64,000 bases of DNA from Cyanobacterium sp. HL-69 (lineage in GTDB: Bacteria; Cyanobacteriota; Cyanobacteriia; Cyanobacteriales; Cyanobacteriaceae). The stretch is taken from positions 1,364,001-1,428,000 of the forward strand of contig CP024912.1 of assembly GCA_002813895.1 (NCBI GenBank), read 5' to 3'. Below are positions 2,472 to 4,017 of this stretch, piece after piece; the first letter of the stretch is position 1, and each line of letters begins with the position of its first letter. The position numbers were made by a program, and so were the translations under genes. The notes under the pieces were generated by a model that was not told where the DNA came from, ran no database searches, and saw nothing but the letters and a program-made list of their open reading frames with translations.

Positions 2472-2762
2472 ATGAGAAATACCAAGGTTGTAAAAACTTT
2501 TGCTAAAAATGCCGCCGTTGAAGAACGCCGCTTTTTGTTTGAAGTTTCTGGGATTTCCCAACAGGGAGATAACAACTTAGAATATGCCATTCGTAAGAGT
2601 GGAAATTCTTTTTTAGCAGTTCCCTATTCTCGTATGAATCAGGAAATGAACCGTATCAACCGTCTAGGCGGTAAGATTGTCAATATCTCCCCTATTGGTG
2701 TAGTAGCTCCTGTGGCAGGAAATACTGAGCCTCAAGAAGCACACCAAGAAACTGATGACTAA
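2472..2762 (+). CDS. Stand-alone CpcD-like phycobilisome linker domain protein, paralogue of the PetH N-terminus
   Basis: This 96-residue protein is essentially one CpcD-like domain (about 17-76) with a short acidic tail (AGNTEPQEAHQETDD). By hand alignment residues 1-76 are identical to the N-terminus of the next gene product, PetH, at 57 of 76 positions; the segment from [12 protein letters not shown] to GGKIVNI is unchanged. CpcD domains cap phycobilisome rods, and in PetH this domain docks the enzyme on the phycobilisome. An AGGAG lies at 2455-2459, and petH starts 43 bases downstream with no terminator, so the two are probably co-transcribed. Whether it caps rods or competes with PetH for docking is unknown. 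Confidence 0.85.
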   Translation: MRNTKVVKTFAKNAAVEERRFLFEVSGISQQGDNNLEYAIRKSGNSFLAVPYSRMNQEMNRINRLGGKIVNISPIGVVAPVAGNTEPQEAHQETDD

Positions 2763-2805
2763 TAAAGAAGCAAAATCAGCGTAAGGAGTTTAGCAATCGC
2801 AATCA

Positions 2806-4017
2806 ATGAAAAAATTTAATACAGTAAAAACCTTTTCCAATAATTCTGTCATCGAAGAACGTCGTTTCCTCTTTGAAGTTGTTGGAATTTCTCAACAAGG
2901 AAGTAATAATTTAGACTATCCTATTCGTCAGAGTGGAACAAGTTTTATTACAGTTCCCTATTCTCGGATGAATCAGGAGATGAATCGGATTAATCGCCTT
3001 GGAGGGAAAATTGTTAACATTACCCCCATCGGTATTAATACCCCTGTTCAAGCTCAAGGTCTAAGTTCAAGTTCTGAAAAAACTACGAACCATAAACCCA
3101 TGACTCAAGCTCAAGAAAAAAAAGAAAAAAAAGAGGTAAAAGTACCTGTCAATATATATCGTCCTAAAAATCCTTTTGTGGGCAAGTGTATTGAAAATTA
3201 CGAACTTGTTGCCGAAGGCGGTAGTGGTACTGTACGCCATTTAACTTTTGATCTTTCTGATGGTGATTTACATTATTTGGAAGGTCAAAGTATTGGTATC
3301 ATTCCCCCCGGAGAAGATGAAAGAGGAAAACCCCATAAGTTACGCCTTTATTCCATTGCTTCGACTCGTCACGGTGACAAGTTAGACGACAAGACAGTTT
3401 CTTTATGTGTTCGTCAATTAGAATATCAAAACGAAGAGGGAGAAACCGTACAAGGTGTATGTTCCACTTATCTTTGTAACCTAGAAGAAAACGCTGACGT
3501 AGCTATTACTGGCCCTGTGGGTAAAGAGATGCTCTTACCTGATGATGAAGATGCAACCATCGTTATGTTAGCTACTGGTACTGGTATTGCTCCTTTCCGT
3601 GCGTTTTTATGGCGTATGTTCAAAGAAAGAGAGTTAAACCCTGATTATCAGTTTAAAGGTTTAGCTTGGTTAGTTTTCGGCATTCCTTACACTCAAAACA
3701 TTCTTTATAAAGAAGAGTTGGAGAAAATGGCCAAGGAATATTCTGATAATTTCCGTTTAACCTATGCCATCAGCCGTGAGCAAAAAACCGATGACGGTGG
3801 AAAAATGTATGTTCAAAGCCGTGTAAGCGAGTATGCTGACGAGTTATTTGAATTAATCCAAAAACCTAATACCCATGTTTATATGTGTGGTTTGAAAGGT
3901 ATGGAGCCTCCTATTTCTGATACCTTTACCGCTGAGGCGGAGAAAAGAGGTATGAATTGGGATGAGATGCGCAAACAGATGAAAAAAGAACATCGTTGGC
4001 ACGTTGAGGTTTATTAG
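2806..4017 (+). CDS. petH: Ferredoxin-NADP+ reductase with N-terminal CpcD-like domain
   Basis: Residues 1-77 form a CpcD-like phycobilisome-docking domain and about 78-118 a lysine-rich hinge. The remainder is the FNR catalytic unit: the FAD-binding segment RLYSIAS, the NADP-binding segment [14 protein letters not shown], and the C-terminal HVEVY with terminal Tyr. It transfers electrons from ferredoxin to NADP+ at the thylakoid. The 403-residue length matches the long cyanobacterial form. Met99 (codon at 3100) sits just before the hinge where other cyanobacteria start the short FNR isoform, so an internal start is possible. AGGAG at 2782-2786 supports the long start. ndhS follows. Confidence 0.97.

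Follow-up and report, generated by a model that had tools for sequence, protein, structure and literature searches.

The 96-residue protein encoded directly before petH in Cyanobacterium sp. HL-69 (G000) is, by its sequence, a duplicated PetH docking domain, and it most likely caps rods in place of CpcD, using the same socket as FNR. Both genes lie in the window, a 64,000-nucleotide stretch of contig CP024912.1, where two open reading frames on the forward strand with 43 bases between them (Table 1) were found as an earlier note on this DNA had claimed. The counts given in that note were also reproduced, with 57 of 76 residues identical between the small protein and PetH and, in a 22-residue stretch, 14 of 22 codons silently different without any residue change. 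A BLASTP comparison of the two proteins (59/81 identical, E 5e-42) excludes chance resemblance.

Table 1. Features of the small gene, petH and their surroundings, in window coordinates
Feature	Coordinates	Strand	Remarks
Small-gene leader, conserved	2405..2471	+	TTGACA 2405-2410, AGGAG 2455-2459; aligns with outgroup petH leaders
Small gene: 96-aa free CpcD-domain protein	2472..2762	+	PetH-derived; proposed rod cap
Gap between small gene and petH, 43 bp	2763..2805	+	ribosome-site-like AAGGAG at 2783-2788
petH: ferredoxin-NADP reductase with N-terminal CpcD docking domain, 403 aa	2806..4017	+	NF058510 706.7 bits, cut-off 635
PetH docking domain, codons 1-76	2806-3033	+	
Internal ATG in petH, residue 99	3100..3102	+	candidate start of a short FNR form without the dock
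NdhS-type neighbour gene, outside the claim	4062..4313	+	PF11623 103.4 bits; 44 bp after petH

Origin and maintenance of the small gene

The CpcD domain (PF01383, cut-off 27 bits) scores 79.2 bits in the small protein and 80.3 bits in PetH. It is the sole Pfam domain in the 96 residues, which differ from PetH in having neither the FAD nor the NADP domain. The NCBIfam CpcD model NF058509 (cut-off 80) is non-discriminating here, giving 104.9 bits to the small protein and 102.2 bits to the PetH dock. Among solved structures, the small protein matched best the sequences of CpcD (7veb_Y, 60.7 bits) and of the FNR dock (8hfq_m, 60.5 bits). The docking stretch of 8hfq_m, from PCC 6803, matches that of G089 without a difference where the two were compared, which identifies genus g12 as Synechocystis. 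The predicted structure of the small protein, a weak model with a mean pLDDT of 67, has the order strand-strand-helix-strand, and its best fold matches were the FNR dock 8hfq_m and CpcD 7sc8_BN (TM about 0.5); passages of PMC6479007 describe the FNR dock as modelled with the same pattern.

With the CpcD rod-capping linker the small protein shares a single CpcD domain, a length below 100 residues and the predicted fold, but it falls outside the clade of 34 normal CpcD and so does not share their descent, its gene does not adjoin cpcC, and it carries PetH-type residues such as EERRFLFEV and RMNQEM. Its nearest tree relatives are instead PetH docking domains. CpcD-DUF1816 proteins of another family, f8 (L119, L120), also bear a CpcD domain without being rod linkers, an example of another module joined to this domain; they differ in their length of about 150 residues, in the extra DUF1816 domain and in lying, by coordinates, far from petH in G105, G134 and G138.

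The domain tree comprised 88 sequences and 82 columns, with matches below 55 bits (cpcC-type domains) left out. All 34 normal CpcD fell into one group (93/95), and the eight sequences representing nine pair genomes (the G003 and G004 copies are identical) were grouped (99/93) inside a branch (100/100) that also holds the 14 family PetH docks. Within it, the PetH and small copies of genera g1 and g3, which we take to be Cyanobacterium and Geminocystis, formed a separate branch (96/92), and the duplication accordingly dates to the common ancestor of the two genera; a tree of the FNR part leaves the genus order unresolved. AU tests rejected a grouping of the family copies with normal CpcD (p 0.0018), the same grouping for the copies of a second genus, g61, described below (p 0.015), and a single origin of both kinds of copy (p 0.0007), values to be read with a bootstrap correlation of 0.952 that had not settled and with AU groups named after the tree had been seen. 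Nine positions, 3, 26, 45 and 73 among them, separate the eight copies from nine g1/g3 PetH docks (G011 left out), which indicates that the small copies have long evolved apart from the docks.

Selection on the duplicate is strong. Between the two CpcD domains of the genome, dN/dS, a calculation that the earlier note had proposed, is 0.104 (dN 0.169, dS 1.63), and the small gene and PetH dock within a genome give 0.10 to 0.23 in 10 of 12 pairs, with silent sites saturated in the remaining 2. Between species, the small gene differs between G000 and G003 by 27 silent changes and 1 replacement in 76 codons, and its dN/dS runs from 0 to 0.21 in 10 family comparisons (0.04 to 0.17 for the PetH dock). 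Together with the tree nesting and the AU tests, this supports the claim that the PetH docking domain was duplicated long ago and that the copy has been held by purifying selection. As a separate observation, the silent divergence of the small gene (2472-2699; dS 0.96 against G003 and 0.42 against G004) is about four times that of the PetH dock (2806-3033; 0.23 and 0.11), and the FNR part has a dS of 0.36 against G004. One idea for the low dS of the dock is an exchange of this part of petH between strains.

In g1 and g3 about 70 bases before the small gene, ending in AGGAGTATATTAA and the start codon, align with the leader that precedes petH in g2, g4 and g5 (13 upstream regions, judged by eye and without a statistic), which places the copy behind the old petH leader. 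petH is the second gene, following after 20-43 bp in the nine family pair genomes, and AAGGAGT precedes it in 8/8 pair genomes compared. No copy of the leader was found in the f1 gap between the genes (402 of 500 shuffles score equally), and the RNA around the 43-bp gap folds worse than shuffles (z +1.96). TTGACA in the small-gene leader may be a promoter element; a promoter scan gave 11 sites against 7.3 expected, the leader TTGACA not among them. A match at 2344 to GTA-N8-TAC, which we take to be the NtcA-type site motif, was set aside as chance, as 16 of 100 shuffles reach the 14 matches counted across the window (10.3 expected).

One genome, G011 of g3, appears to have lost the small gene by collapse of the pair. 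Its petH carries the derived leader, and of the first 5 positions that differ between the consensus sequences of the two copies, 3 are small-type and 2 neither, while the next 12 comprise 8 PetH-type, 1 small-type and 3 of neither type. Its FNR part falls within g3 (97/94; a tree of 21 rows, without G143, in which no FNR part was found). This pattern is most simply read as a deletion between the two copies that would have left a chimera.

Downstream of the dock, the internal ATG of petH may be a candidate start for short FNR, a role proposed from the known FNRS mechanism (passages of PMC9319322), and Met-Thr is present in the PetH linker of 4/5 further family proteins compared (the exception being G012). 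Shortly past this ATG, at 3116-3132, the linker holds two A8 runs with one G between them, a possible slippage site. In G003 the petH frame (L021) is broken at an A-run between the dock and the FNR part, which is A7 there and A8 in G000; the cause is either a sequencing error or slippage. The NdhS-type gene follows petH in G000, G003 and G004 (most other loci compared end about 0.5 kb past petH), which suggests that FNR and NDH-1 genes are linked. Phage records gave no match.

CpcD complement and distribution of the pair

The earlier note had called the small gene extra, and this part of its description did not stand. A genome-wide search found four CpcD domains, in petH, the small gene, a cpcC-type frame (289 residues) and an apcC-size frame, the last named apcC from its size and its position beside two phycobiliprotein genes. 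The small gene and this apcC-size frame are the only short CpcD frames, and no normal cpcD was found by this whole-genome CpcD-domain search, so the copy stands in the place of cpcD rather than beside it. The linkers in the genome comprise one cpcC-type, one 259-residue rod-core-type and the core linker, and a phycobiliprotein pair at C1:1850933 was taken as cpcBA.

The neighbourhood of cpcC was searched for a remnant. cpcC lies about 17 kb from the small gene and has no adjoining cpcD. In 18 kb around it (L033), tblastn with 34 normal CpcD proteins matched only its own domain, and no cpcD remnant was found beside cpcC in any of the six genomes without normal cpcD that were examined (G000, G003, G004, G007, G010 and G105). 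The stretches from the latter five likewise matched at the cpcC domain alone, except that G007, G010 and G105 gave further weak matches (E between 0.03 and 1) lying within or overlapping other frames. As a control, the normal cpcD genes of G013 and G021 were recovered by their own queries, as expected.

A search of other genomes for the two-gene arrangement, which the earlier note had suggested, showed the pair conserved in 9/15 family genomes and in two genera (5/5 genomes of g1 and 4/5 of g3). In three other family genomes, two of g5 (which we take to be C. aponinum) and G012 (67% complete), a small CpcD adjoins a CpcC-type gene. Free cap-type CpcD is absent from the last three, G005 and G006 (both g2) and G011 (g3), whose only small CpcD frame is of apcC size; in the two g2 genomes PetH may be the sole protein of such kind at rod ends. 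No family genome of the 15 carries both the pair and a normal-type small CpcD.

The order and class samples comprised 120 and 107 genomes. Among the matches listed for them (150 in each listing), 112 genomes have PetH and a CpcD match in a frame below 370 codons, and PetH and such a CpcD lie within 2 kb on one strand only in G000, G105 and G121, a count that leaves out weaker matches, other family members among them. These matches also include pairs of small CpcD frames no more than about 0.6 kb apart, in G078 (L039) and in several other order and class genomes, namely G030, G057, G095, G111, G127, G177, G183, G192, G197, G204, G208 and G209.

A second case in genus g61

G105 and G121 belong to g61, probably Microcystis by our assumption, a genus of family f8. 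An 88-codon frame with a strong CpcD match is present in 7/7 sampled g61 genomes and lies before petH in 6/7; in G158 both genes are near contig ends. Six of the seven copies (4 distinct sequences) entered the tree, the G158 copy being known as DNA and match only, and they join g61 PetH (98/91). The case seems, from these sequences, independent of the g1/g3 duplication and belongs to a distant genus. Here too normal cpcD is missing, with none in 7/7 genomes among 5 or 6 CpcD domains each. The other domains lie in petH, in cpcC-type frames, in an apcC-size frame and in a frame of 148 to 164 codons, through which g61 has one more CpcD-bearing protein; as read in G105, this frame looks similar by eye to the CpcD-DUF1816 proteins found in G134 and G138.

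The g61 genes are separated by 287-292 bp in five genomes and by 640 in G140, and by eye the gap holds a hairpin-like element and a T-run. Both genes carry TAGGCTAAACTA, and of five petH leaders examined from other f8 genomes, 5/5 have TAGGCT and 4/5 have TAGGCTAAA. The match between the small and petH leaders of g61 is modest (6/500 shuffles reach it). The petH leader scores above the small leader against each of five other f8 leaders, and the small leader clearly beats shuffles only against that of G152 (4/200). On this leader evidence the g61 copy likely has a leader of its own.

Proposed rod capping, rival explanations and meaning

According to passages of PMC9319322, rod extension is ended by CpcD, and passages of PMC10322944 report that CpcD and the FNR dock bind the Pfam00427 domain of CpcC2 in a similar pattern. 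Earlier work cited in passages of PMC10433846 found rods not significantly shortened by cpcD deletion. Rod capping and competition with PetH, both named in the earlier note, are the likely roles of the small protein. In the proposed mechanism, the 5′ part of petH would have been duplicated before g1 and g3 diverged. The resulting free docking domain would occupy the Pfam00427 socket that the last CpcC linker offers at the phycocyanin rod end, capping rods in place of the lost CpcD. The two genes would be co-transcribed as a short operon, with the old petH leader at its head. As the cores are near-identical and the operon apparently single, the share of rod ends with FNR rather than a plain cap would be set mainly by the relative translation of the two genes. 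We consider this account, of a petH-5′ duplicate capping rods for lost CpcD with a translational FNR/cap share, rather probable. Counting against it, the three genomes without free cap-type CpcD (G005, G006 and G011) imply that a cap is dispensable.

It is unlikely, though worth weighing first, that the small protein mainly regulates FNR as a decoy that keeps it off rods, raising soluble or otherwise bound FNR, rather than being a structural cap. The near-identical core and close spacing to petH would fit such a decoy, as would the report, in passages of PMC9319322, that Synechococcus 7002 with a dockless FNR shows no photoheterotrophic growth and impaired cyclic flow. However, the absence of normal cpcD in both lineages points to cap replacement, and the g61 genes lie at least 287 bp apart with seemingly separate leaders.

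Relocation of a normal cpcD beside petH was dropped on the tree and leader evidence. A variant in which the moved gene was made PetH-like by gene conversion and remains an ordinary rod cap is improbable, more so than the decoy. It could explain why normal cpcD is missing from the same genomes, and position 26 is S or T in the eight pair sequences, as in 17/34 normal CpcD, where family PetH docks have V in 14/14. Yet already the first residues of the protein are of PetH type, and none of the normal CpcD starts, such as MLGQ, is present; its gene stands behind what aligns with the old petH leader, and g61 would need the two steps repeated. Convergence of the pair proteins to CpcD residues was not used as an argument, position 26 being the only hint. 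A duplication relic of little function, suggested by the seeming chimeric loss in G011 and the lack of a copy in g2, is highly improbable given retention in 9/15 genomes, the low between-species dN/dS and the kept spacing and AAGGAG-type site.

Returning to cap replacement, its wider form is held more tentatively, with a chance we place somewhat short of even: on at least two independent occasions a free FNR dock upstream of petH would have taken over capping from CpcD, cap and FNR would compete for one socket with nearly matched binding faces, and in g1 and g3 a single transcript would set their ratio. The parts are of known kinds, and the new element is the repeated replacement of the rod cap by FNR's dock. 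No account of the arrangement was found in passages of the open-licence full-text literature, a scope outside which most subscription journals lie. The abstract of PMC9319322 states that what FNR signifies on antenna rods is not yet known, before tying it to photoheterotrophic growth, and passages of PMC10322944 ask why rods of CpcG phycobilisomes show no FNR. Lineages with the cap replaced by the FNR dock would be natural experiments on shared rod ends, and as cap and dock are few residues apart, this sharing is testable through one small gene. If the account is true, the single transcript of g1 and g3 would be a built-in dial for the share of FNR on the antenna.
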